From: Bacteroidaceae bacterium
GTDB lineage: Bacteria; Bacteroidota; Bacteroidia; Bacteroidales; Bacteroidaceae
Direction of reading: 5' to 3'
Assembly (NCBI GenBank): GCA_017469925.1
Contig: JAFUFK010000001.1
Span: 1 to 64,000 of the forward strand
DNA: 64,000 nt
The notes under the pieces were generated by a model. The model ran no database searches. It saw nothing but the letters and a program-made list of their open reading frames with translations, and was not told the origin of the DNA. Each line of letters opens with the position of its first letter. The stretch's first letter is position 1. Position numbers and translations under genes: made by a program. This document shows positions 905-57,940 of the stretch, one piece after another.

Positions 905-1050
905 GACATTCCTAAGTGACATGATTTCGTCACCACCATGTCACTACCTGTGACATGGCCGTGTCAGTACCCGTGACACGGGCTGGTCATCGGTCGTGAC
1001 ACGGCCTTGTCAGCACCACTGCCATGATAGTGTCACGGGTGCTGCCACCT
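905..1050. repeat. 23-nt period array of TGTCA / GTGACA boxes
   Basis: Box TGTCA(C/G) or a one-base variant occurs at 939, 962, 985, 1008 and 1031, exactly 23 nt apart, and an inverted partner GTGACA occurs at 950, 973 and 996, also 23 nt apart, with a further GTGACA at 916 (939 minus 23). Bases between boxes vary. The array fills the gap between the mnmA promoter and the stop of the next gene at 1064. Confidence 0.8.
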
Positions 1051-1063
1051 GGGAGCCGAAGGT

Positions 1064-5840: not shown

Positions 5841-6437
5841 TTAGCGCACCAGTGTCCACTGCCTCCGTCCCTCAAAGGTCTGGATGCCGAGCGTCAGGGT
5901 GTCGGTCTCCGGGAGTGAGTCGAGGGGCAGGGAAGCGTACTGGTCGGTGGTGTAGGCCGTCGGGTCGTTGCCCTGGCGGTGAAAGAGACTGAGGAAGGTG
6001 TGTCCCGGGCGGATGCTGTCCACCATATAGCCCCATGTCTGTCGGCCCCCTTGTGTCTTGGGCAGAAGGTGGAGGTTGAGGTAGCGCCTTGTACGCCAGA
6101 GGCTGGCCACGTTAGTAGGGTCTTGCCGTGGCGTACGGGTGGAGTCGCGCAGCAGGGCCGCGGCCGTGAGTGAGTAGAGTGTAGCCTTCTGGTCCTCCAC
6201 GGTGAAGCCTGCCAGTGCCCGATAAATGACGTTGGCCCGCAGACCTGTCTGCGGGTTTGTGAGCACAAGGCGGGTGTCGTCGTCGAGCGTGATGGAGGTC
6301 ATCGTCCCGTCGCTGTTGGTGGGGCAGTCGGCCATCTCTGTAACGAGGCTGGGGTAGGGGGAGTCCTTGTCGTCGTCGTTGCACGATGAGAGACAGAAGA
6401 CGAGGAGCAGCAGTGTGAGGTTAACGGGTCTCTTCAT
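5841..6437 (-). CDS. NigD-like lipoprotein
   Basis: 198 residues with a lipoprotein signal ending in the lipobox LSSC (Cys19), then DDDK and a two-domain beta-rich body typical of the NigD-like family (SITLDDDTRLVLTNP in the N-terminal OB-like part; ASLPLDSLPETDTLTLGIQ near the end). NigD proteins are secreted Bacteroidetes lipoproteins first named from a bacteriocin locus; their biochemical role is not established. Its start overlaps the end of the upstream acyltransferase gene by 17 bases, so the two are co-translated. It converges on the receptor gene with only 8 bases between stops. Confidence 0.82.
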   Translation of the reverse strand: MKRPVNLTLLLLVFCLSSCNDDDKDSPYPSLVTEMADCPTNSDGTMTSITLDDDTRLVLTNPQTGLRANVIYRALAGFTVEDQKATLYSLTAAALLRDSTRTPRQDPTNVASLWRTRRYLNLHLLPKTQGGRQTWGYMVDSIRPGHTFLSLFHRQGNDPTAYTTDQYASLPLDSLPETDTLTLGIQTFEGRRQWTLVR

Positions 6438-7575
6438 AGTTTATGACAGGGTTGGCATACATGGTCAGCAGGCGCTCGCGCAGGAAGGCCTCGTCGCGGT
6501 TGGGCAAATCCACGAGGGCGATGCGCGAGGCCAGGTACTGTTCGAAGGCCACCTTCTCCTTGTGGCTGTAGTGCTCGGCATGCGTGGGCCGGCCGGTGAG
6601 CAGGTCGAGGGCTACGTAGTTGCCGGGGAAGAGGCGGTAGTGGCGGTGAATCTCGCGGTCGATGCGCTGGGCCAGTTCGGTGTAGAATTCCTTCTGGGGC
6701 AGGTCACTCAGTTCGTCTATCCACGCGTTGATACAGGGTGCGGCGTGGTAATGAATATGACCCTTCTGCCCTTTAATGCCTGTCTTCATGTTCACGAGGT
6801 CGTCTTGCTTCGACTTCTTCCATGCAGGGTCGTCGCGACGCTGTTGGAACTCCTTGGCCTTCAGGTAGTCGCACGGGTCGTACTCATAACTGATGGAGAG
6901 GGGTACGATGTGGAGTGCCTTGATGGCCTCCACGGGGCTTTCGGCGTTGCTCATGGCCATCATCTTCAGGAGTGATACTTGTGTCTGGTCGCTCGAGTCC
7001 TTAGCACGCCCTTCGCGCTGGGCTATCCAGATGTTCTCGCCCTTTTCCTGGATGACGTGGTGCATGTAGCGGCTCATAAGCAAGCTGCTCTCGTAGAGTT
7101 CGTGCCTGGAGATGTTGCGCCTGACAATGAAGGCCTTGTTCAGCCGTACCAAGGTGCGTATCCACGGATAAATGAGGAGATTGTCCCCGATGGCTATCTC
7201 GCAGGTGGTCGGGAACTTGGCGTCGTGGAGCATCACATCGAGGATGGCCGAGTCGAGCACTATGTCGCGGTGGTTCGAGAGAAAGGTGTAGCGTGGCTCG
7301 CCGGCCTCGATGGCCTGATGGTCGAACGTGTGGTCCGTCGAGCAATTCCTAAGGATGTAGTTTACCACAGGCTTCATGAACCGCAGTTGGAACTGGAGGG
7401 TGGAGTGGATGCCCCACGTGGCCAACTTCAACATGCCCCGGCTCATGCCCAGCGGAAGTATGGGGGCGATGCTTCGGAGTATGCGCGAGAACTGGCGGTC
7501 GTTGAGCAGGCTCTCGATGGCCGGCCTGACCTCCTCGTCGTTGTAAGGCCGAATGGAATCAAATTCATAATTCAT
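6421..7575 (-). CDS. PlsC-like 1-acyl-glycerol-3-phosphate acyltransferase family protein
   Basis: 384 residues. The acyltransferase signature SNHRDIVLDSA (about residues 98-108) and the downstream block ENIWIAQREGRAKDSS correspond to the NHxxxxD and (E/F)PEGxR-type motifs of glycerophosphate acyltransferases. It probably transfers an acyl group onto a lysophospholipid or aminolipid at the inner membrane, but the substrate is uncertain. It follows ddl and overlaps the NigD-like gene. Unusually, the start codon and first codons (MNYEF) are part of a tandem ATTCATA repeat that places four ATGs 7 nt apart, each in a different frame. Confidence 0.85.
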   Translation of the reverse strand: MNYEFDSIRPYNDEEVRPAIESLLNDRQFSRILRSIAPILPLGMSRGMLKLATWGIHSTLQFQLRFMKPVVNYILRNCSTDHTFDHQAIEAGEPRYTFLSNHRDIVLDSAILDVMLHDAKFPTTCEIAIGDNLLIYPWIRTLVRLNKAFIVRRNISRHELYESSLLMSRYMHHVIQEKGENIWIAQREGRAKDSSDQTQVSLLKMMAMSNAESPVEAIKALHIVPLSISYEYDPCDYLKAKEFQQRRDDPAWKKSKQDDLVNMKTGIKGQKGHIHYHAAPCINAWIDELSDLPQKEFYTELAQRIDREIHRHYRLFPGNYVALDLLTGRPTHAEHYSHKEKVAFEQYLASRIALVDLPNRDEAFLRERLLTMYANPVINYEETR

Positions 7576-7655
7576 AATTCATAATTCATAATATAATTCA
7601 CGATGCACGGCACCACAGCCTAATTGTGAATTGTGCATTGCGAATTATGAATTAA
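7562..7655. repeat. Inverted heptamer (ATTCATA) array across an intergenic gap and start codon
   Basis: Left arm 7562-7601 has four tandem ATTCATA units and then a degenerate copy. The right arm 7620-7655 carries the reverse complement type (GAATTATGAATT). A GC-richer loop separates them. The left arm runs into the acyltransferase start codon; the right arm abuts the ddl stop. Confidence 0.75.
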
Positions 7656-8635: not shown

Positions 8636-9318
8636 TCTTCTTTGGGTTTTATGGGGTTAATGGGCTGATTGGGCTGGATGGGATTTATGGGGCTATTGGG
8701 TCGGCTGGGTTGATTGGGCTGTTGCCCATTAAACCCATATTGCCCATTACCCCCATATCCCCCATTTCTCTTCTGCCAATCCTTTCTTGCCCGGTACATT
8801 TCTTCCTTGATGCCGCCTTTTTCCTTAAAGTCGCGCTTCTTCCATTCTATGAGACCGCGAATCAGCACGTCGCACTGGTGAATAAGTGTAATGGCAATGT
8901 TTGCTATCGTCTCGTCCGAACGTTCTTTGATTTTCTCCCGATAAACGGCAGAGTCAAGATGGGTCTTGCAGAACGCACGTGTCTGCCGACAGCGAGGGTC
9001 GTCATACTTCCATTGCTCCAATCCTCGGACGCGCAGGTAGTCCTCATAGTCCAACAATAGTTCGTGGAGCGATGCGCGATTCACGTTGGTCAGTTTCAGC
9101 TCCATCTCACGCGAAGTGATTCCGTCGATATTCCCCTCAGCCAGATTCTGCTTGCCCGAGCGTGCTGCCTGCACCATCTGGTCGATGGTGCGGTCACCTG
9201 TCTTTAGGAACTTGTGGGCGAAATAGAACGTCACGTCGTAGATACACTCCGCTTTCTGGAATGCCTTCAACGTACGGTAGTTGTTATCTTGCCTCAGAAA
9301 ATCCTTGTCCTCTTTCAT
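8632..9318 (-). CDS. Four-helix-bundle (S23-type) protein with a repeat-derived C-terminal tail
   Basis: 228 residues. Residues 1-175 match the four-helix-bundle family first seen as proteins encoded in 23S rRNA intervening sequences (FLKTGDRTIDQMVQAARSG, AEGNIDGITSREMELKLTN, LHELLLDYEDYLRVRG). Such proteins are small helical oligomers of unclear function, common beside mobile and defence genes. The last 45 or so residues are Asn/Pro/Gly repeats (QPNQP, SPINPIQPNQP) encoded by a short-period G-rich/C-rich inverted array (8643..8768), so the natural C terminus has been extended by repeat growth. It ends within the first codons of ddl. Confidence 0.85.
   Translation of the reverse strand: MKEDKDFLRQDNNYRTLKAFQKAECIYDVTFYFAHKFLKTGDRTIDQMVQAARSGKQNLAEGNIDGITSREMELKLTNVNRASLHELLLDYEDYLRVRGLEQWKYDDPRCRQTRAFCKTHLDSAVYREKIKERSDETIANIAITLIHQCDVLIRGLIEWKKRDFKEKGGIKEEMYRARKDWQKRNGGYGGNGQYGFNGQQPNQPSRPNSPINPIQPNQPINPIKPKEE
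8643..8768. repeat. Inverted array of GGGCTGATT-like repeats forming a protein tail
   Basis: G-rich units (ATTGGGCTG, ATGGGG) fill 8643-8721 and C-rich units (TTGCCCATT, ACCCCCAT) fill 8723-8768, so the two halves can pair. It encodes the tail of the four-helix-bundle protein. Confidence 0.75.
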
Positions 9319-25054: not shown

Positions 25055-26428
25055 ATGAAATGTAGGATCCTATCATTCTATCTGGCACTCATGATGCCTG
25101 TAATTACGACTTACGCACAGACCCTGTCAGTCGAAGATACCATAACAATCTATGAGCATGGACATGAACAAGGAAAAATATCAATGTGGGACATCAACAA
25201 CGATTCCCTATGGATACTGGTTGAGCATGTGGTCGTAGATACGGCAAAGATAGAATCTATGGTCATAGAGGCGGATAAGGAGAAAAGAGCCAAGGCTGAT
25301 TCCATCATGCAGGCCGAACGATTAGGATATGAATCACAAATGGCAGTGATTGAGGCTCTGATGGAGCATGAGAAGAAAAAGACTGTTGTGGATGACGAGA
25401 AACAGTTAAAGACGTTGATGTGGTATAGAGACCATGCAAGTATGTCGGAGTCTGCAAGAAATAAAATAGACAAACACAAAGTGCCAAAAGGGCTATCAGA
25501 GTGGTATTTGTTGGATGCTCGTGCAGAACTACAGCAGAAGGTAACCCAAGTCAGGGACCCATATCAGCCTGCCACATGGTACGATGCCTACCCTTACGAG
25601 AAACTCTATCCGAAAAAAAAGGTACATAAGCGCGTCCGCAATCCTTATTGCGTTGATAATTATCTTAATGGATATTTCTCGGCGAGTAGCATGGACTCCA
25701 AGAAGTGCTACTACTTTAATATGGTGACGGGATGGGAGTGGGCTGAACGGGAAAAGGCAGAACAGAAAGAAGAACACTATCCCATGAATCTGCATTATAG
25801 TTGTTATCCGACGCATCCGGAATATCGATTCTCTGGGAATGAGGTTTACGACAAACAAGGAAAACTTGTCAGAATAACATGGATAAATGGAGGCTATTTA
25901 TATTTTGGAGAGTATAAGAAAGATATCAAGAAGGAACTACTTGAACAACTTTGCAAGCGTGACTTTCTTGCTAATAAATATGACATCAATAGTGCGAAGA
26001 AAGAGACCCTTACGGCCTTGTCTATACGGTATGAACTGGCAAATGCGGTGGATGCACGTTTTGAGAGATACGTGAAGATGGCCAAAGAGGCACGTGACGA
26101 AAAGGTTAGCGCGACTTCATTGGAACAATACAATCGCGCACAAAAGAAACAAACCGAAGCCCTGAATGTCTTAATGGAGTACGTGCAGAAGGAACGGGAA
26201 CCACAGGCATTGAAGTATATCGCCCAACTGGAGGCTGACCACAAGGATGACTTCAAGTATCTATACAAGATAGAACGCTTGGACGGCACGACATTTAAGT
26301 GTTATTGGTTAAACTCTAATCTGGAGTGTGGCTGCATTGCTAAAATAGCATGGCAGAACGATGGGCCATATAAATCCCAATATACAATAGAGCTACTACC
26401 CCATGAAGTAGTAACTATTAGGAGGTAA
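25055..26428 (+). CDS. Secreted hypothetical protein, unrecognised family
   Basis: 457 residues with a signal peptide (about 1-21, ending TTYAQ). The body is charged and helical with many Lys/Glu/Tyr residues; EKRAKADSIMQAERLGYES and LEQYNRAQKKQTEALNVL suggest coiled-coil stretches. The middle has paired Cys (CYPTHPEYRFSGNEVYDKQG) with a YD/GK beta-hairpin like those of MORN- or WG-type repeats (YDKQGKLVRITWINGGYLY). I do not recognise a family. Base composition is more AT-rich than its neighbours, which suggests recent acquisition. It may be transcribed with the structured RNA upstream. Confidence 0.75.
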   Translation: MKCRILSFYLALMMPVITTYAQTLSVEDTITIYEHGHEQGKISMWDINNDSLWILVEHVVVDTAKIESMVIEADKEKRAKADSIMQAERLGYESQMAVIEALMEHEKKKTVVDDEKQLKTLMWYRDHASMSESARNKIDKHKVPKGLSEWYLLDARAELQQKVTQVRDPYQPATWYDAYPYEKLYPKKKVHKRVRNPYCVDNYLNGYFSASSMDSKKCYYFNMVTGWEWAEREKAEQKEEHYPMNLHYSCYPTHPEYRFSGNEVYDKQGKLVRITWINGGYLYFGEYKKDIKKELLEQLCKRDFLANKYDINSAKKETLTALSIRYELANAVDARFERYVKMAKEARDEKVSATSLEQYNRAQKKQTEALNVLMEYVQKEREPQALKYIAQLEADHKDDFKYLYKIERLDGTTFKCYWLNSNLECGCIAKIAWQNDGPYKSQYTIELLPHEVVTIRR

Positions 26429-26560
26429 AAATTCTCGCTATTAGTCAGCGAAGTTGTTGGCTAATAGCGAGGAATCCGGTGCGCTAATAGTCAGCACACC
26501 CTCTTCCCTAATAGTGTGCGGCGCGACGGACTAATAGCAAGACGATTCGTGGACTATTAG
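26415..26560. repeat. 23-nt period array of CTAWTAG boxes
   Basis: The 7-mer CTATTAG or its reverse complement CTAATAG begins at 26415, 26438, 26461, 26484, 26508, 26531 and 26554: steps of 23, 23, 23, 24, 23 and 23. The 16 bases between boxes vary freely. The first box overlaps the final codons of the gene ending at 26428; the rest fills the gap before the radA stop at 26664. Confidence 0.88.
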
Positions 26561-26663
26561 TGAGTGGAGTGGTGCTTATATAACGCGAGGATGTGCCTAT
26601 TTTGACACACCCTCCTTCTGCGCCATGACAAAACTGATGCAAGCATCGTTCTGCTCATTTTAC

Positions 26664-28139
26664 TTACCCAAATAACTCCCTCACCGCCTCGGCGACGCGA
26701 TGGACGGGGACGAGGTCGAGTTTCAGGTCTTTCCGATTGATGCCCTTTAATCCTTGGGCGGGGACAAGCATGCGACGGAAACCGAGTTTCTCGGCCTCGG
26801 CAATGCGTTGTTCCAGGCGGCTGACGGGACGAATCTCGCCCGAGAGGCCCACTTCGCCGCATAGGCAGGTGTCGGCATCGATGGCGGCATCCACGTTGCT
26901 CGAAAGGACGGCGGCAATGACGCTGAGATCCATGGCAGGGTCAGTGACGCGCAGGCCACCGGCGATGTTCAGGAATACGTCCTTTTGGGCAAGTTTGAAG
27001 CCGACGCGCTTCTCCAGCACGGCCAGCAACATGCCCAGGCGGCGGTTGTCGAAGCCCGTGGCCGAGCGCTGGGGGGTGCCGTAGGCGGCGGTGGATACGA
27101 GGGCCTGTGTCTCTATCAAAAGCGGGCGCACGCCCTCGATGGCCGAACAGATGGCGATGCCGCTCAAGCCCTCGCGCCCTTCGGTGAGCAAGAGTTCGCT
27201 GGGGTTTGATACTTGTCGCAGTCCGCCTTGCAGCATTTCGTAGATGCCCAGTTCCGAGGTGCTGCCGAAGCGGTTCTTCTGCGCGCGTAGGATGCGATAC
27301 ATGTAGTGCTGGTCGCCCTCGAATTGCAGGACGCAATCGACAATGTGCTCCAATACCTTCGGCCCAGCCAGCGTGCCCTCCTTCGTGATGTGCCCAATGA
27401 GGATGACGGAGCAGCCCCCCGACTTGGCAAACTTCAGCAACGAAGCCGCACACTCGCGAATCTGACTAAGGCTGCCCGGCGACGACTCCACGCCCTCGGT
27501 CTGTATGGTCTGTATGGAGTCGATGACCACGAGGTCGGGCTGCTCCTCGGCAATATGCTCGTAGATGGCCTCAAGGGAGGTTTCGCACAATATAAGCAGA
27601 CCCTCCCCCTTCCCCTCCCTTGTAGGGCGGGGAGTAGATACATTCTGAGGCTCAGTAGTAAATACATCCTGCCCCCTCCCTACAAGGGAGGGTTGGGGGA
27701 GGGTCTGTAGTCTATCGGCACGGAGTTTTATCTGTCGGGCACTTTCCTCACCACTGACGTACAACACCTTTTTATCTTTCAGTCGCAGTACTGTTTGCAG
27801 GATGAGGGTGCTCTTGCCGATGCCCGGTTCGCCGCCCAGCAGCACGAGGCTGCCCTCGACCAGCCCGCCGCCCAAGACACGATTCAGTTCCTGGTCGCCC
27901 ATGTCGATGCGCACCTCTGCATCAGCCTGGATGTCATGCAAGGGCAGAGGGGAAGAGCCCTCCTGACCTCCCCTTGAAGGGGAGGAAATCCCCCTCCCTT
28001 TAAGGGAGGGATGGGGTAGGTCTCTTACTTTGAATTCCTTCATCGTATTCCACTGGCCGCAGGCGGGGCACTTGCCCACCCACTTCGTCGCTTCCTGTCC
28101 GCATTCCGAGCAGACGTACATAGTCTTGTCCTTTGCCAT
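26664..28139 (-). CDS. radA: DNA repair protein RadA, with two palindromic insertions
   Basis: 491 residues from the ATG at 28139 (MAKDKTMYVCSECG). The N-terminal zinc finger uses Cys10, 13, 24 and 27. Walker A GGEPGIGKST lies at 102-111, the RadA KNRFGSTSELG motif in the middle, and a Lon-protease-like C-terminal domain (GGLRVTDPAMDLSVIAAVLS). RadA promotes branch migration in recombination. Length exceeds the usual 450-460 because residues about 40-62 ([19 protein letters not shown]) and about 145-181 (PSLVGRGQDVF to PTREGKGEG) come from in-frame palindromic elements. It starts 4 nt after a small secreted protein gene that carries the promoter. Confidence 0.95.
   Translation of the reverse strand: MAKDKTMYVCSECGQEATKWVGKCPACGQWNTMKEFKVRDLPHPSLKGRGISSPSRGGQEGSSPLPLHDIQADAEVRIDMGDQELNRVLGGGLVEGSLVLLGGEPGIGKSTLILQTVLRLKDKKVLYVSGEESARQIKLRADRLQTLPQPSLVGRGQDVFTTEPQNVSTPRPTREGKGEGLLILCETSLEAIYEHIAEEQPDLVVIDSIQTIQTEGVESSPGSLSQIRECAASLLKFAKSGGCSVILIGHITKEGTLAGPKVLEHIVDCVLQFEGDQHYMYRILRAQKNRFGSTSELGIYEMLQGGLRQVSNPSELLLTEGREGLSGIAICSAIEGVRPLLIETQALVSTAAYGTPQRSATGFDNRRLGMLLAVLEKRVGFKLAQKDVFLNIAGGLRVTDPAMDLSVIAAVLSSNVDAAIDADTCLCGEVGLSGEIRPVSRLEQRIAEAEKLGFRRMLVPAQGLKGINRKDLKLDLVPVHRVAEAVRELFG
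27597..27706. repeat. In-frame palindromic element 2 in radA
   Basis: Terminal inverted repeats CAGACCCTCCCCC / GGGGGAGGGTCTG, each followed by a CTTGTAG-centred hairpin, around a 35-nt spacer. Same design as the mnmA element. It interrupts the region after Walker A. Confidence 0.85.
27957..28023. repeat. In-frame palindromic element 1 in radA
   Basis: Two hairpins (CTCCCCTTGAAGGGGAG and CCCTCCCTTTAAGGGAGGG) bounded by GCCCTCCTGACC and TGGGGTAGGTCT. It matches 21673..21741 closely. Confidence 0.85.
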
Positions 28140-28143
28140 GGTG

Positions 28144-28521
28144 TTACATTTTAGTATTTGCCGACCTCGAACTGATGCGCTTGCCCTCCTTCGTCCAAGT
28201 GTATATCCACGAGGCGTTGCGGCTGGTGAACGTGTCGCCGCTGGCCGAGAGTATCTCACCCACGACGTTCACACCGAGCGAAGTGATGCGCTTGCCCGAA
28301 GCATCGTAGATGATGTAGTAGCTATTGCCTTGGCGGATGATGTAGAACGACGAGGTGTAGGTGACGAGCCGCCCCTGACTGGTACTGAAACTGCGGATGC
28401 GCTTGCCGTCCTCGTCATAGACGTAGTACCACGAGCGTGTCGTCTCGATGTAACTGATGCGCTGTGCCCTCATGCCGATGGTACACAGCAGCGCGATGAT
28501 GAGTATTATGTGTCTGCGCAT
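28144..28521 (-). CDS. Small secreted protein with GKRI beta-hairpin repeats
   Basis: 125 residues from MRRHIILIIALLCTIGMRAQ, a signal peptide. The mature part has three similar units ending in DEDGKRIRS, DASGKRITS and TKEGKRISS, each preceded by an aromatic strand (SWYYVY, SYYIIY, SWIYTW), which suggests a WG-like repeat fold. No known function. The ATG at 28521 was chosen because it begins the signal peptide and lies downstream of a good promoter. It leads the radA transcription unit (4-nt gap). Confidence 0.75.
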   Translation of the reverse strand: MRRHIILIIALLCTIGMRAQRISYIETTRSWYYVYDEDGKRIRSFSTSQGRLVTYTSSFYIIRQGNSYYIIYDASGKRITSLGVNVVGEILSASGDTFTSRNASWIYTWTKEGKRISSRSANTKM

Positions 28522-33854: not shown

Positions 33855-34922
33855 TTATTGTTTTCTGCGGATTAGGATTCTTGAATATACACGTTGTCCC
33901 TTTACTACACCACAGCCTCCTCTATCCTCTGGATGTGGTTTGTACCCTAATTCCTTTAATATCTCGACGGGAGCACAAGCCCGAGTATTTCCGCTTGCCT
34001 GCCATACGATTTCAAATTGATTAGGATTATACTTGTCAAGGAATGTAATAGGGACTCCCATAATTCCATCATAATCAATCGGAATGTTTTGCGTAGAATT
34101 GACATTGATTGCATTGTAATTATCATAACCAGGGTAATCGTCTGGATCATATTTTCTATATAAAACCAAATCTTCATACCGCTTTTTCGTTTCAAGATTC
34201 GTAAACCATTGCACCCCCGACACCCTTATCATTCCCTCTTTGTGATTACTTGATGTCGCAACATCATTATAAACAGAATAGAAATGTCCTGCTCCTCCCT
34301 TAAAGCCATAGCCTAACCAAACTTGATTATTCCTAATTAGGGGAAATATTTCTTTGTAGGTTATCGCATTCTGATTTCCAATTATCAAGAATTTCTTATC
34401 ATACTTTATCAATTGTGCCACATATTCACGGAAAAGAGAGAAGGGTGGATTGGTGCAGACGATGTCCGCCTGTTTCAGGAGTTCGATGCACTCCGAGGAA
34501 CGGAAGTCGCCGCTACCCTTGAGGATGGAGAGTACGTTTTTGTCGTTCTGCAAGAGGTACTGCACATCGGCGAGATTTACCACACCGTCGCCGTTCACGT
34601 CCGTCACTTCTGTTATCTCCACCTTGTAGGCAATCTTCTTGGGCTCCCCCGTGAAGTCTCCGAAGTCAAGCATTAGTTCATTCCCCTGAACGGGCGACCC
34701 ATCGTAACAAGTGGCGATAAGTTTCCGCAAGCCCAGCGCATTGAAGTTCAGCGCAAAGTATTTGAAGAAATTCGACTCGTAAGGGTCATCACAATTGCAC
34801 AGCACCACCTTGTCGCGGAAATGTTCCCGATAGTGGCGCAGTTCGTTCTCGATATCGACGAGTTGCGTATAGAACTCGTCCTTCTTGTTTCGTGCAGCAT
34901 TGCTAAGATTCGCATTAGCCAT
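33855..34922 (-). CDS. EcoRI-family adenine-specific DNA methyltransferase
   Basis: 355 residues. Motif IV NPPFSLF lies at 158-164; the N-terminal DEFYTQLVDIENELRHY and CNCDDPYESNFFKYF are typical of the EcoRI methyltransferase family. An EF-hand/dockerin-like loop (DVNGDGVVNLADV, about 108-120) is inserted before motif IV; I believe this occurs elsewhere in the family. It is the upstream member of a two-gene unit with DUF262-HNH and is noticeably AT-rich toward its 3' half. A structured leader of about 250 nt separates it from the likely promoter at 35230. Confidence 0.88.
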   Translation of the reverse strand: MANANLSNAARNKKDEFYTQLVDIENELRHYREHFRDKVVLCNCDDPYESNFFKYFALNFNALGLRKLIATCYDGSPVQGNELMLDFGDFTGEPKKIAYKVEITEVTDVNGDGVVNLADVQYLLQNDKNVLSILKGSGDFRSSECIELLKQADIVCTNPPFSLFREYVAQLIKYDKKFLIIGNQNAITYKEIFPLIRNNQVWLGYGFKGGAGHFYSVYNDVATSSNHKEGMIRVSGVQWFTNLETKKRYEDLVLYRKYDPDDYPGYDNYNAINVNSTQNIPIDYDGIMGVPITFLDKYNPNQFEIVWQASGNTRACAPVEILKELGYKPHPEDRGGCGVVKGQRVYSRILIRRKQ

Positions 34923-34977
34923 ACGCTAAACATTTAAGGCGTATTGCCTATCTTCGGAGTAATGGCCAAATACACAA

Positions 34978-35226
34978 ACAAAGCATGAACGATTCTCATC
35001 CATGCTCTGTGGTGTAGGAGACCATTAAAACCAGATAAGTCACGCCCATGCCTAACGCACAGACGCTTGCAACTTATTCTTCGGTTTTAACTTGAAATTT
35101 CCTACGTTCCAGAGCATTCCGAATAACAGCAAACGCGTGTTAATATTCCAATAAGATTCCGAGCAGGGCACCTCCGCTGAGTTTCCATCGTCACCTGTTA
35201 GGGGAGGCGACTTTATGCCCTCTCGG
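34978..35226 (-). ncRNA. Candidate structured RNA or long leader upstream of the methyltransferase
   Basis: Read on the minus strand after the -7 box at 35230-35237. Hairpin 1: 35222-35226 with 35159-35163, 35216-35221 with 35165-35170, and 35203-35207 with 35171-35175, a nearly continuous 16-bp helix. Hairpin 2 pairs about 35119-35140 with about 35062-35084. Hairpin 3 pairs 34978-34986 with 35001-35010. Such stacking of stems is unlikely by chance. It may be an independent RNA or a regulatory leader of the methyltransferase-DUF262 operon. I could not match it to SRP, tmRNA, RNase P or a riboswitch class. Confidence 0.45.
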
Positions 35227-35229
35227 CCA

Positions 35230-35263
35230 CAAAGATACGACTTTTATTTTACAGGGGAAAAAG
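35230..35263 (-). promoter_or_regulatory. Likely promoter of the methyltransferase-DUF262 operon
   Basis: Minus-strand TATCTTTG at 35230-35237 in the context TCGTATCTTTGTGG, the same as at 52418. The -33 box is a poor T-run. Confidence 0.5.
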
Positions 35264-35274
35264 ATTCGGGAAGA

Positions 35275-35396
35275 AAATCATCCGCCATCCCGAGTCGGGT
35301 GCGCCTGCTCCTCGGGACAGACGGACGAACAATAGGGCACGGACGGATGAGCGTCAGGACGCTATGCCTGTTGCGTCCCGATGCTGAATCGCCGTC
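35275..35396 (-). repeat. 122-nt dispersed element, copy 1
   Basis: Aligns without gaps over 122 nt with 52479..52600, about 60 percent identical by hand count. Conserved blocks: AAATCATC, ATCCCGA, CAATAGG, GTCAGGACG/ATCAGGACG, GATGCT and TCGCC. It contains the hairpin 35351-35384. Both copies lie just upstream of a promoter driving a defence-type gene. Confidence 0.75.
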
Positions 35397-35403
35397 ATCG
35401 TAA

Positions 35404-35474
35404 TGCATCGTTGATATCTTCGTAGTGCATAGACGTTAAGACCTATATGCATAGTTCGTAACCTTTAGGTGCTT
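35404..35474. repeat. 22-nt period array of TGCAT boxes
   Basis: TGCAT begins at 35404, 35426 and 35448, with a degenerate TGCTT at 35470: steps of exactly 22 nt. It runs directly into the next array. Confidence 0.7.
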
Positions 35475-35485
35475 GCTGCGTTCAT

Positions 35486-35570
35486 AAGTTTGGAATGTAC
35501 GTACCAAACTTTGGAACGCACGTCCGTAACTTTGGAATGCGCGTTCATAACTTTGGTAATCTTGATGCAA
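35486..35570. repeat. 21-nt period array of AACTTTGG boxes
   Basis: AA(G/C)TTTGG begins at 35486, 35507, 35528 and 35549: steps of exactly 21 nt. Each box is followed by a GnACGTnC-like centre. It sits between the TGCAT array and the hipBA terminator. With the RNA candidate, promoter and 122-nt element, these arrays account for most of the 755-nt gene-free stretch 34923-35677. Confidence 0.8.
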
Positions 35571-35633
35571 TGGAGTAACTATCTTGCTAAACCATAGATA
35601 GTGCTCATTGGATGCGGAATAATAACTTTAGGA

Positions 35634-35676
35634 AAAGCCAATGTAAGCATTGTGTTTCTTTGTTTACATTGGCTTT
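35634..35676 (-). terminator. Terminator of hipBA
   Basis: Perfect 13-bp stem AAAGCCAATGTAA / TTACATTGGCTTT with a 17-nt loop, immediately after the hipA stop at 35678, followed on the minus strand by TTTTCC. Confidence 0.75.
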
Positions 35677-35677
35677 A

Positions 35678-37018
35678 TTACAAGTTATCTATAGGTTGTG
35701 CAAGGTGAAGTAAGTGGGTGGAAGCGATGGCTCTTGTGATGTCTGCGGGAATGCCTACCTCCTTTGCCCACTTTGGCCAGTTGGCTACGGCATTGATGAC
35801 CTTCTCGATGATTTCCCGTGGGCGTTTGATGTTCATGTTCGATGCCACGGCCAGGAGGTCGGCACGGGTGATGTCGGTGTACTTCCCGTTAATGGACATC
35901 TGGTGCTGCGCTGTCCACTCGCCCTCGGGGTTATATGCCCAAGAAACATCGTAGGCGGGGGAGAGCCGCCATGTGCCCTCGTGGTTCATGAGGAACGATA
36001 TGTTCTTGGTGTGGTCGTCTTGGTTGCGGGCAACGACGTTGAACACCATGCGCCGGAACATCTCTTCGGCTTGCTGGTAGGGCAACCGCAGGCGACGCAT
36101 GACCTGGAACGCCTGTTCGTAGGAATAGGCACGAAGCAGTTTGTAGTCGTAGTGCGCCAGGCCGCAGAGTGTCTGCATGTGCAGTTTGCCGTTACTTTCC
36201 GTGCGGTCGAAGCGGCGTGTCATGAAGTGTGCACGTCCGTTCTCCTCCAGCAGTCGGCTGGGCATCATTTCGATGCCTGCTTCACGCGCCATCAAATAGT
36301 AGGCGTACTCGATGCGCCCGTAGTGCTTGGGGACACCAAGTTCTTGCACGGCAAGCGTAGCCCCTTCGGGGCGTCCGATTTCCAAGTTGGTGATGCCGTC
36401 CAACTTCAACAGCCAATGCTGGAAACCCTTTGGGGCATCTACCTGGCCGGAACGGACTTCGCCCGTCTGCCCGTTGTAGGCAATGACGGCCTTTGCGCGC
36501 TGTCCGCCTGCCGAAGTGCCCACCTTGATGATATTCAGCAGGGCCTCCTTGCGGTCGTCGGAGAGGTTGACATTGAGTTGTTCCTTCTGCAAGAGAGCCT
36601 CTCGTGCCACTTGCACCAAGGCATCGATTTCTATACGCGCCTCATGTTCGAGAAAACTGTCCTGTGCCGGCTCGAACTCCAAGGCACCCATGCTGCGCTT
36701 GCCTTGGTAGCAAAGGCGCTCCACAGGATTGGCAAAAGTGCGTCCCACGGTGGCCAGCCAGCGGTCGAGCAGTGCCTTTCCGTAGGCATCGGGGAGCGCA
36801 TCGGCCAGCAAGCCGGGCAGGCCCATGAAGGTCTCGTATGACAAAGATTGGAAACTATAAGCCTGATGCACGGACACGGGCATTTGCAGGGGCGCGAGGT
36901 CGAGTCCCGCACGTTCAAAGTCGGCATCGTACTCGAAAACGGCAGATTGCTTCTGCTCGTCCCACATTACGATGCCCGCCTTGCGATTCCAGATATTTAC
37001 ATTCGCCAGTGTTACCAT
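35678..37018 (-). CDS. hipA: HipA-family serine/threonine kinase toxin
   Basis: 446 residues, full length for HipA. N-terminal HipA_N domain (about 1-110), then the kinase-like domain with the phosphate loop region KVGTSAGGQRAKAV, FQHWLLKLDG, and the catalytic ARNQDDHTKN segment followed by SPAYDVSW with the metal-binding Asp. HipA kinases phosphorylate aminoacyl-tRNA synthetases and cause growth arrest or persistence. The start overlaps the end of the hipB-like gene by 7 bases. No truncation is seen. Confidence 0.92.
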   Translation of the reverse strand: MVTLANVNIWNRKAGIVMWDEQKQSAVFEYDADFERAGLDLAPLQMPVSVHQAYSFQSLSYETFMGLPGLLADALPDAYGKALLDRWLATVGRTFANPVERLCYQGKRSMGALEFEPAQDSFLEHEARIEIDALVQVAREALLQKEQLNVNLSDDRKEALLNIIKVGTSAGGQRAKAVIAYNGQTGEVRSGQVDAPKGFQHWLLKLDGITNLEIGRPEGATLAVQELGVPKHYGRIEYAYYLMAREAGIEMMPSRLLEENGRAHFMTRRFDRTESNGKLHMQTLCGLAHYDYKLLRAYSYEQAFQVMRRLRLPYQQAEEMFRRMVFNVVARNQDDHTKNISFLMNHEGTWRLSPAYDVSWAYNPEGEWTAQHQMSINGKYTDITRADLLAVASNMNIKRPREIIEKVINAVANWPKWAKEVGIPADITRAIASTHLLHLAQPIDNL

Positions 37019-41613: not shown

Positions 41614-43419
41614 CTATTCTTCTGCATAGACTTCCATTAGGCATCGTTTACAATCGAAGTGCAGACGGAACCGACGCCCGTCGGCCAATCGGAGGAAGAG
41701 AGGCACTGCAGGTGCCTTATGGCATAGACCCAACTCGTGCCGTATGCAGTAGCGGCAGGTCATAATAAGTGGCTGCGGGCCTGCGCTCTTGGGGTTGACC
41801 TCCATGGCCCAATCGACCCGTGTGGCCCCGTGGTCGAGGTAGAACTGGCGCGCCTCGTGGTTGGCAACGTTGGCAAGGTAGGAGAGGGACGAGGCCTGAG
41901 GCTTCGCCAGTTCAGAGTTCAAAATGCATGGTTCATGGTTATCTGCATCTTGCACATTGAACTTTGCACCTTGCCGAAGCATCGCCTCTGCACAAATCCT
42001 CCTCCACTCTGCCAGTACGCTTCCGGGGATGAACCAGTCCTGAGTCATGTCGATGTCGATGCCCATCGCCTCGTAGGGTGTGTCGCCGAGTCGCGAGAGT
42101 TGGCGCGTGATGGGTTCTGCTTGCGGACTACGTGCCAATTCGTGTGGATAGGGGAAGGTCTCTTCCGTGGCGAAACCGTCCTCGCGCGTCAAACGTAAAA
42201 GAAAACCGTCGGGCACCTCCTTCAGGAGCCAGCGGACTCCCACCTTCCTCGTGGCAGTGGGCTTCGACAGTTGTTGCTCGAAGTCGTGGTCGTAGTTGCG
42301 GTAAAGCCCCCCTCTTGTCCCTCTGGGGAGGACTGCGCCATTAGCGAGATAAATCTTGTCGCCGTCCACGCGATTGACGCGGAAGCCCTCCAGCAGGCCT
42401 TCGTCGTTCAGGTAGCACAGGCCGTCGCCATTGTGCAACCTGCTCTGTGCGTCGAGGGGTTCTCCCATGCTCTTGGGCGTATAGATATTGGCCATGTCGG
42501 GCGTACGGCCGTGAAGGAAATAGTCGGTAAACAGGCGGTTGAAGGACTTCGCGGGGTTGGGCGTGAAGGTAATGGCCTCGTGTCCCAGGCTGCTGCGCCG
42601 GTATTCGGGACGCCGACGGAGAATCTCGTCGAGCCGCTGGCGATAGTAGGCCACGACGTTCTTTACGTATGAGACGTCCTTCAGCCGGCCCTCTATCTTC
42701 AGGCTGCTCACTCCGGCATCGAGCAAGGCCTCCAGGTCGTTACTTCGGTTCATGTCGCGAAGGGATAGCAGATGGCGTTGACGTTGCAGCACCTGTCCGT
42801 CTTCGGTCACGAGGTCGAACGGCATACGGCAGAACTGGGCACATTCGCCACGATTGGCCGAGCGTCCGAAGCAATATTGGGAAGCATAGCACTGGCCGTT
42901 GTACGAGACACAGATAGCCCCATGTACGAACACCTCCAGTCGTACGTCGGGCACCATTTCGTGTATCTCCCGAATCTCTTCCAGTGTCAGTTCCCTGGCC
43001 AGTACCACCTGCTCGAAGCCCAGGTCGCGCAGCCACCTGACCTTCTCCGCCGTGCGGTTGTCCATCTGGGTGGAAGCGTGCAGCCTTAATTGTGAATTAT
43101 GAATTATGAATTGTGAATTGAGCAGTGCCATGTCCTGCACAATCAGGGCATCCACGCCAGCGTCGGCGAGCTGGCGGGCCAGCCGTCGTGCCTCGTCGAG
43201 TTCGTTGTCGTAGAGAATGGTGTTGAGGGTCACATATACCTTAACTTTATACGCGTGCGCAAAACTGACCAGTTCGGCGATGTCCTCCACCGAGTTGCCG
43301 GCAGCGGCCCGTGCACCAAACTTCGGAGCACCGACGTAGACGGCGTCCGCGCCGTGGAGGATGGCCTCCCGTCCCGTCTTCAGGTCGCGTGCAGGTGCCA
43401 GCAGCTCTATCTCCCTCAT
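41614..43419 (-). CDS. U32-family protein (YegQ/RlhA/TrhP-like)
   Basis: 601 residues from MREIELLAPARDLK at 43419. The U32 domain has ADAVYVGAPKFGARAAAGN, FVHGAICVSYNGQCYASQY and RGECAQFCRMPF, with the Cys cluster of this family; the C-terminal DUF3656-like region ends with CRYCIRHELGLC and CKRCLMEV. Members of this group are linked to tRNA or rRNA hydroxylation rather than proteolysis. An AT-rich repeat (43084..43122) encodes LLNSQFIIHNSQLRL in frame, and a second non-family stretch near 41920-41970 encodes NHEPCILNSELA. Divergent from GH43. Confidence 0.9.
   Translation of the reverse strand: MREIELLAPARDLKTGREAILHGADAVYVGAPKFGARAAAGNSVEDIAELVSFAHAYKVKVYVTLNTILYDNELDEARRLARQLADAGVDALIVQDMALLNSQFIIHNSQLRLHASTQMDNRTAEKVRWLRDLGFEQVVLARELTLEEIREIHEMVPDVRLEVFVHGAICVSYNGQCYASQYCFGRSANRGECAQFCRMPFDLVTEDGQVLQRQRHLLSLRDMNRSNDLEALLDAGVSSLKIEGRLKDVSYVKNVVAYYRQRLDEILRRRPEYRRSSLGHEAITFTPNPAKSFNRLFTDYFLHGRTPDMANIYTPKSMGEPLDAQSRLHNGDGLCYLNDEGLLEGFRVNRVDGDKIYLANGAVLPRGTRGGLYRNYDHDFEQQLSKPTATRKVGVRWLLKEVPDGFLLRLTREDGFATEETFPYPHELARSPQAEPITRQLSRLGDTPYEAMGIDIDMTQDWFIPGSVLAEWRRICAEAMLRQGAKFNVQDADNHEPCILNSELAKPQASSLSYLANVANHEARQFYLDHGATRVDWAMEVNPKSAGPQPLIMTCRYCIRHELGLCHKAPAVPLFLRLADGRRFRLHFDCKRCLMEVYAEE
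43084..43122. repeat. In-frame AT-rich heptamer tract in the U32 gene
   Basis: TAATTGTGAATTATGAATTA-type repeats in an otherwise GC-rich gene, matching the tract at 7562..7655. Encodes about 13 residues. Confidence 0.65.
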
Positions 43420-43451
43420 TGCTATTGTCTCAATGTTTTTCGATTTCGTTG

Positions 43452-43482
43452 CAAAGGTACGATTAAGCGGGCGGAAATGCAA
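43452..43482 (-). promoter_or_regulatory. U32 operon promoter
   Basis: Minus strand TTG (43480-43482), 20-nt spacer, TACCTTTG (43452-43459). Confidence 0.65.
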
Positions 43483-43488
43483 GGATTG

Positions 43489-43520
43489 TTTGCTTTTTTG
43501 CCCGTTTAGTGCTACCTTTG
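43489..43520 (+). promoter_or_regulatory. GH43 operon promoter
   Basis: TTTG (43489-43492), 20-nt spacer, TACCTTTG (43513-43520), 25 nt before the ATG at 43546. Back to back with the U32 promoter. Confidence 0.7.
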
Positions 43521-43545
43521 AGCCGAAAACAAGCAATCAAACAAT

Positions 43546-57811: not shown

Positions 57812-57830
57812 TCGAAGGGGTGTTTTTATG

Positions 57831-57940
57831 TTAAGTTAACCTACGTCCGTAAGTTATGTTAATCTGTGGCCCTAAGTTGAGTTAACCTAAGCCCGTAAGT
57901 TAAGTTTACCTGTGGCGATAAGTTATATTAACCTCTGGCG
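57831..57940. repeat. 23-nt period array of GTTAACCT boxes
   Basis: GTTAACCT or a one-base variant begins at 57835, 57858, 57881, 57904 and 57927: four steps of exactly 23 nt. A TAAG precedes most boxes. Intervening bases vary between CGTCCG- and GTGGC-type. It lies in the 381-nt gap between the nucleotidyltransferase start and the helicase stop; besides the promoter and one hairpin I see nothing else there. Confidence 0.88.

Follow-up and report, generated by a model that had tools for sequence, protein, structure and literature searches.

The nearest described element to the repeats reported here is BrickBuilt of Porphyromonas gingivalis, a MITE or minisatellite made of 1-23 intergenic, imperfect tandem repeats of 23 nt that are predicted to form long stem-loops (PMC4596501). 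In the available portions of that report, BrickBuilt is a single sequence family with a leader and a tail that carry IS5-like terminal repeats, no nucleotide match to it is recorded beyond P. gingivalis and P. gulae, and direct repeats of 22, 23 and 41 nt are mentioned for strain W83 (PMC4596501). Similarities also exist to the REP and BIME sequences associated with RAYT, which, in the available text, are dispersed extragenic palindromes with grouped copies and species-specific expansions (PMC3733652), to CRISPR arrays with their palindromic repeats and regular variable spacers, and to the mobile GC clusters of yeast mitochondria, portrayed in the accessible part of one report as small sporadic palindromes that lie mostly between genes and whose units merge (PMC4478555).

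The arrays described below share with BrickBuilt, as far as its description was available, a 23-nt tandem unit, an intergenic location in Bacteroidales, conserved and non-conserved halves of the unit, predicted long stem-loops, and a unit number that varies at a locus; the preliminary description, which knew of no described element with this layout, is corrected on this point. They are set apart from BrickBuilt, as described in the portions available, in that they comprise many unrelated families, usually have 3-5 units and are found in Bacteroidaceae-type genomes; nor were a leader, a tail or IS5-like ends seen at them, clear conservation of the flanks being lost within about 14 nt in the family of arrays designated A below. 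Unlike REP and BIME as outlined in the available text (PMC3733652), they are tandem at 21-23 bp and present many unrelated palindromes per genome. CRISPR arrays are defined in the same partial source by repeats of 24-48 bp (PMC3733652), whereas the present arrays have repeats of about 7-16 bp and spacers of 6-16 nt and are small, dispersed and counted in dozens. The GC clusters belong to organelle DNA and have short flanking direct repeats, and the accessible part of their description holds no fixed-period arrays (PMC4478555). No description of a multi-family class of arrays of period 21-23 was found in the literature searched and, as far as those searches extend, the class is apparently undescribed.

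The window, meaning the whole stretch of 64,000 nucleotides that was analysed, lies on contig 25 of its own genome, G000, which measures 2.87 Mb and is 86% complete. The closest genome compared, G014, has a RadA protein 93-94% identical and is 61% complete; the relatives compared were mostly uncultured Bacteroidaceae, Prevotellaceae and Prevotella, many of them from ruminants, plus some isolates, and the group is here called Bacteroidaceae accordingly. GTDB places Prevotella in Bacteroidaceae. The locus at which the analysis began has the following features.

25055..26428, + strand: ORF of 457 aa with no Pfam family, 99% identical in G014, with the first box of the array in its 3′ end
26415..26560, no strand: seven-box CTAWTAG array, documented by box positions, shuffles and the orthologous 10-box array in G014
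26434..26471, no strand: best-preserved inverted pair of the array, CTCGCTATTAG ... CTAATAGCGAG, with 11-bp arms and a 16-nt centre
26587..26660, no strand: two dispersed repeats of the genus (26587-26617 and 26614-26660) that adjoin the array and are not part of it
26664..28259, - strand: radA/Sms-like gene, convergent neighbour of the array (Pfam: AAA_25, LapB-type zinc ribbon, ChlI, Lon_C)

Copies of CTATTAG or CTAATAG start at 26415, 26438, 26461, 26484, 26508, 26531 and 26554, and the steps of 23, 23, 23, 24, 23 and 23 first reported for these seven boxes are correct, leaving five gaps of 16 nt and one of 17. Within 26381-26660, a single canonical 7-mer forms chains of up to seven members at steps of 22-24, and no chain longer than two arose in 2000 dinucleotide shuffles; a chance origin is ruled out by these shuffles for the array and by the survey controls for the periodic class to which it belongs. 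The array lies between two convergent genes, the ORF on the + strand and the radA-like gene on the - strand, and it is intergenic except where its first box overlaps the end of the ORF; because this box sits in the last codons, the array begins at a gene end. The first of the dispersed repeats beside it (GAGGATGTGCCTATTTTGACACACCCTC) is found within ~150 bases of a contig end in several relatives, as the termini of insertion sequences might be. The radA-like protein has two in-frame inserts, at about residues 77-103 and 186-217; its matches in other Bacteroidales families break off and restart around the second insert, short parts of it also match loci of the same genome (C11:23214, C25:21654, C16:34894, C6:134986), and insertion of a palindromic repeat into genes would give such a pattern.

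The orthologous array of G014 has 10 boxes against seven in the window, a difference of exactly three units or 70 bp, and unit 2 of the window array reads as a hybrid of G014 units 2 and 5, at one junction of the change in unit number. At a second orthologous pair (G000 contig 19 and G014 contig 10) the lengths differ by one 23-bp unit. Judged by alignment, the window array is one copy of a dispersed element, of which four copies were found in G014 and two in G000; another short CTATTAG array, at G000 contig 6:371783, stands outside the alignment. The six aligned copies have only the array region in common, and their flanks can be matched only between orthologues. The element is similar to its reverse complement, and the full box in the G014 copies, as read by eye, is the 15 bp palindrome CTCGCTAWTAGCGAG. 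The box is rare, since triples of CTATTAG occur in only 6 of 139 genomes of the genus and in only 3 of 301 sampled from the family (G014 was not in this sample).

Among the four G014 copies, 146 of the 486 positions compared in the spacers of units 2-6 are divergent, whereas the matching boxes vary at 3 of 180 positions if the centre base is left aside; the centre itself varies at 10 of 30, by substitutions between A and T except for a G in one degenerate box. Divergence is thus 30% in the spacers and below 2% in the boxes outside the centre base. The idea that only the box and its spacing are kept is correct to the extent that both are held more strictly than the spacers, and alignment with relatives showed by eye that they have the same spacing, down to the units at which the 24-nt steps fall. 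The spacers do not vary freely, however: they are unit-specific, and the spacer of a given unit can be recognised both in the orthologous copy and in the dispersed ones. The array has therefore been inherited as an element and does not consist of boxes set on random DNA.

The survey for similar arrays was an autocorrelation of intergenic segments (periods 12-60, at least 35 of 50 positions matching, short periods removed), with genes called crudely as longest ORFs and intergenic DNA only retained.

Own genome (G000), 564 kb: 22 arrays of period 21-23, 4 of other periods
G014, 476 kb: 12 arrays of period 21-23, 3 of other periods
79 radA loci from named records, 924 kb: 23 arrays of period 21-23, 5 of other periods
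Other families of the order, 600 kb: 1 array of period 21-23, 1 of another period
Other orders of the class, 280 kb: 0 arrays of period 21-23, 1 of another period
Other classes of the phylum, 120 kb: 0 arrays
E. coli, 150 kb: 0 arrays

The periodicity suspected from the window was borne out in the genome and its relatives: in the three Bacteroidaceae-type sets (950 segments), 57 of 69 periodic segments have a period of 21-23, against 1 in 607 segments of the four outgroup and control sets, and shuffled segments (one shuffle each) gave no arrays in any set. The 564 kb of the own genome consist of the window, 16 stretches and 9 stretches, with L215 and L220 picked for CTATTAG arrays, as were G014 contigs 3, 9, 10 and 30. 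With the window, L215 and L220 removed, the own genome keeps 17 of 20 periodic segments at 21-23, and G014 keeps 10 of 13 once its three stretches picked for CTATTAG are removed; a run on the window and the 16 stretches alone gave 15 arrays at 21-23. The CTAWTAG array of the window is too degenerate for the survey threshold; it was found by the box-chain scan and later added by hand. The class consists of common intergenic repeats that differ in their short palindromes from locus to locus and nearly all have a period of 21-23, the boxes being unrelated between most arrays.

RAYT-dependent REP elements were rejected as an explanation. No Y1 (RAYT) transposase (PF01797) was found in G014 (61% complete), G001, G016 or G072, and G000 has one match below the cut-off, though two genus members (G112 and G123) have weak partial matches just over it. 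Other Bacteroidales families, which yielded 1 array in the survey, have matches over the cut-off in 9 of 11 genomes. Promoter or terminator elements were likewise set aside: arrays occupy 16 of 99 convergent, 23 of 261 co-directional and 11 of 128 divergent gaps, a mild excess in convergent gaps without significant preference for any orientation (chi-square p 0.09). Two arrays may share one gap, as in L088, in L043 and at L122:9565-9870, where GGTGTTCGTGGCCATGCGCTTA units are succeeded by units of AAGACGCGCGTCTT + 8 bases at period 22. An array of the palindrome CAAMATASSTATKTTG at 22 nt is very similar at three places in the G014 sample (L161, L168), and an ORF starting MPIKYSLSARP (by eye) follows it at L168 and at the orthologous place in L215 of the own genome.

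The preliminary description had counted three more loci of the same design in the window, and three further arrays of the class fit this remark.

939..1053, no strand: array of a TGTCAC/GTGACA unit, period 23
35394..35556 (start and end approximate), no strand: array or arrays of TGCAT boxes at 22 nt (by eye), then CTTTGG units at 21 nt
57828..57934, no strand: family A array (AGGTTAASTTAACCT + 8 bases; GTTAASTTAAC), 5 units, period 23

The second region is orthologous in G014 (99.5% over 1300 bp), which also has two diverged copies of its 21-nt part elsewhere (83% and 72%). The 755-bp gap that holds this 22/21-nt array is flanked, within 33855-37018, by genes for an EcoRI-type adenine methyltransferase (PF13651, E 2.8e-148) and a HipA-like protein. 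Repeats of other kinds were also seen in the window. Tandem repeats of 7 bases (AATTCAT, AATTGTG) overlap the start of ORF 6421-7575(-) at 7562-7653 and, at 43088-43120, lie inside the long ORF 41614-43536(-) as called, and a stretch with periods of 9, 18 and 27 nt at 8642-8766, in which a TGGGNTTAA-like repeat turns into CCCATTA, is unlike the 21-23 class in design.

The anatomy of the unit was compared in 59 arrays with periods of 20-24. The unit profile is more self-complementary than column permutations (p<0.05) in 34 of them, where about 3 would be expected; the 25 that miss this level include the six most homogeneous, none of which is palindromic. A typical palindromic unit, read by eye, consists of a palindrome of 14-16 bp and 6-8 variable bases, with half-sites whose spacing varies between families; examples, also by eye, are GGTTCA-8-CGAACC-2, ACTGGTT-7-AACCAGT-1 and AGTACT-8-AGTACT-2. 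Unit numbers are narrowly distributed, usually 3-5 (three units in 15 arrays, four in 24, five in 14, six in 4, seven in 1 and eight in 1), with detection requiring about 3 units. A general conservation of boxes alone within arrays was rejected, because single arrays show an excess of invariant columns in just 4 of 59 cases (mean z 0.27), at a power that is low with 3-5 units each; box-only conservation is accordingly shown for particular families and not for every array. Perfect palindromes with arms of at least 6 proved uninformative as an independent signal: their ratio to shuffles is 1.76 in the own genome, 1.45 in G014 and 1.60 in the radA loci, against 0.85 in other families of the order and 0.77 in other orders, but it reaches 1.80 in E. 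coli, and few of the distances between them are at 21-23 (4 of 22, 1 of 5 and 0 of 8 in the first three sets).

Paired columns of the palindromes co-vary. Counts were made in the 31 arrays that combine palindromy at p<=0.05 with a length of at least 4 units, and covered only pairs with at least half Watson-Crick cells: 41 double compensatory (Watson-Crick) changes were observed against 22.3 +- 3.7 after shuffling (maximum of 300 shuffles, 35), and 819 Watson-Crick cells against 768 +- 7.7. Mismatches of the G-T and A-C types are balanced, 110 to 91 overall, 53 to 58 on the coding strand and 23 to 31 in family A, while their heterogeneity between arrays exceeds the binomial expectation (p 0.009 and 0.04). 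If the arrays were transcribed as tandem hairpins that act as terminators, stabilisers or a protein-sponge RNA, this heterogeneity could come from strand-specific RNA, but it is counted weak because the first of the two tests counts bases twice. The CTAWTAG arrays do fold strongly as RNA, and the family A unit can be read by eye as a 7-bp stem with an 8-nt loop; set against this, the coding strand shows no wobble asymmetry, there is no significant preference for gene ends, and a function as RNA hairpins is considered very improbable. Rfam models had no match in the window at the gathering score. A single long nested hairpin per array was rejected: the CTAWTAG arrays fold well, but the complementarity of the spacers is not consistently nested.

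Family A was followed by searching 139 genomes, in the forward direction, for two units of AGGTTAASTTAACCT + 8 bases with at most 2 mismatches. There are 85 matches in G000, 45 in G119, 33 in G138 and 1-3 in each of six others, and none in the other 130, G014 (61% complete) included; loci are fewer than matches because the matches overlap. The reversed control pattern has no match in G000, and one or two in only two other genomes. Unit numbers were counted in 47 arrays of G000, G119 and G138, a non-random sample in that most were retrieved through their matches: two units in 3 arrays, three in 7, four in 21 and five in 16. Steps between boxes are 23 in 119 cases and 22 in one; eight steps of 46 and one of 45 reflect a missed box, two long steps of 62 also occur, and the remainder (three of 5 and three of 18) are off-register matches. 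The spacers are distinct in 101 of 119 cases. The 564-kb sample, assembled without regard to family A, has 40 boxes matching at 14/15 or better, all of which fall into 13 arrays, and none is solo (at 15/15, 4 boxes stand alone as their neighbours drop below the threshold), and the G014 sample has one solo box at 14/15 or better and none in arrays. Neither a terminal inverted repeat, a leader or tail, nor a target duplication was seen at family A arrays, and a search of G014 for empty sites of 28 of these arrays yielded flank matches for 4 and no clean empty site. Comparison of the genes near family A arrays across the three species found 4 homologous gene pairs.

These patterns bear on the possibility that the arrays are produced by DNA structure alone, through hairpin-templated (quasi-palindrome) correction and hairpin-assisted slippage, with the period set by the geometry of DNA or its replication and no protein involved. 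Owing to the compensatory changes, this is the strongest neutral alternative. It is also consistent with neighbouring units in G119 that share a linker and carry other palindromic cores (by eye), and with the lack of a clear excess of G-T over A-C mismatches, as expected for DNA and not RNA. Yet double changes within family A are mixed: of 14 pair positions, 9 exceed the mean of the shuffles, 2 of them surpassing every one of the 500, and 5 fall short of that mean; and the class is nearly absent from other families that have the same replication chemistry. Such a process also leaves the identity of stems between units and between dispersed loci unexplained, and it is rated distinctly unlikely.

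Orthologous gaps were also compared for the presence of arrays. A four-unit AGTACT array in Bacteroides mediterraneensis L076 corresponds to a single AGTACT in L077, although the proteins on either side are 97.5% identical; L074, in a poor alignment, is also without the array. Between the units of L076 the AGTACT columns, which were picked after they had been seen, show no difference in 72 comparisons, against 33 differences in 60 for the other columns. Among 127 orthologous gap pairs (196 loci), both members have an array in 2, of which one is the same G120 region seen twice, one member has it in 8, and neither in 117. One further orthologous gap was missed by the automatic pairing; there the family A array of G000 (57828..57934) is matched in G120 by an array of unrelated sequence, CCGTCRATATATTGACGG, likewise of period 23, and this may be a coincidence or a hot spot.

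If the arrays were ordinary minisatellites, that is, slippage duplications that subsequently decay and whose period is accidental to the lineage, one would expect the gain and loss of units in register, the near-perfect direct repeats seen in some arrays (G072 loci, L040, L042) and the lack of a general excess of invariant columns. Such an origin is less easily reconciled with a period held to 21-23 over unrelated sequences, with the narrow unit number, palindromy and dispersed homologous copies, with the disparity of spacer and box divergence between the G014 copies, or with the invariant AGTACT columns of an array that L077 and the poorly aligned L074 lack. For the class as a whole this explanation is already hard to keep, and it is rated improbable.

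Alternatively, the arrays could form a lattice with a host function, such as platforms for nucleoid organisation, boundaries or supercoiling, bound by cooperative host proteins whose specificity changes fast between species. The fixed period and narrow unit number would suit such a lattice, as would the absence of a significant preference for promoter or terminator gaps and the unrelated period-23 palindromes that G000 and G120 carry at one orthologous gap. Such a function does not sit well, however, with many unrelated boxes within a single genome, with 85 family A matches in G000 versus none in G014, or with arrays so rarely common to orthologous gaps, and it is regarded as rather unlikely.

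The preferred reading, held with a little less than even confidence, is that the arrays are non-autonomous modules of sites for a dimer-type protein that have spread in bursts. The period, the palindromy of many arrays, their dispersal and patchy distribution, the in-register change of units and the narrow unit number are observed; from these we infer the protein and its kind, active mobility and a reason for the 21-23 spacing. A module would be a head-to-tail, non-coding series of usually 3-5 units of 21-23 bp, each unit comprising a dyad-symmetric box of about 14-16 bp and 6-8 variable bases. Each box would most likely be bound by a DNA-binding protein or enzyme that is symmetric (dimeric), with about two turns between adjacent dimers, and the whole module would be copied or retained through recognition by the symmetric protein. 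Bursts would be family-specific and differ per species, as in a non-autonomous (MITE-like) element, and units would be gained or lost in register by recombination between boxes. Copying or retention of the module as one piece would agree with the narrow unit number, the absence of solo boxes, the dispersed homologous copies and the bursts peculiar to each species. Against it are the variable spacing of half-sites between families, which is unlike the expectation for one protein architecture, and the 25 of 59 arrays that miss significant palindromy, along with the finding that no more than 4 of 59 have invariant columns in excess; classical MITE features were not seen in the arrays, and no transposase or binding protein was identified for them.

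This preferred reading does not rest on helical phasing. It had been supposed that all the boxes face nearly the same side of the DNA, but with 10.5 bp per turn of B-DNA a step of 23 bp makes 2.19 turns and drifts by 69 degrees per unit, so that the seven boxes would wind round the helix; 21 bp would keep them on one face.

A broader reading, entertained more tentatively but still a genuine possibility, is that throughout the Bacteroidaceae some process equipped with a molecular ruler creates or maintains tandem palindromes at 21-23 bp whatever their sequence, so that the geometry is inherited and the sequence replaceable. It is suggested by the unrelated palindromes of the same period in one gap of two species, by an array with identical stems and differing loops that is missing from a close relative (L076 and L077), and by units within one array that swap palindromic cores with compensation.

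The 22-23 arrays in 564 kb of the 2.87-Mb genome extrapolate, roughly, to about a hundred per genome, with a shared period and mostly unshared sequence, in very common gut bacteria. The class points to a novel machinery that binds or copies DNA and measures off two turns, to a non-autonomous element of a new sort, or to the two together, and it bears on the turnover of intergenic DNA in these bacteria.
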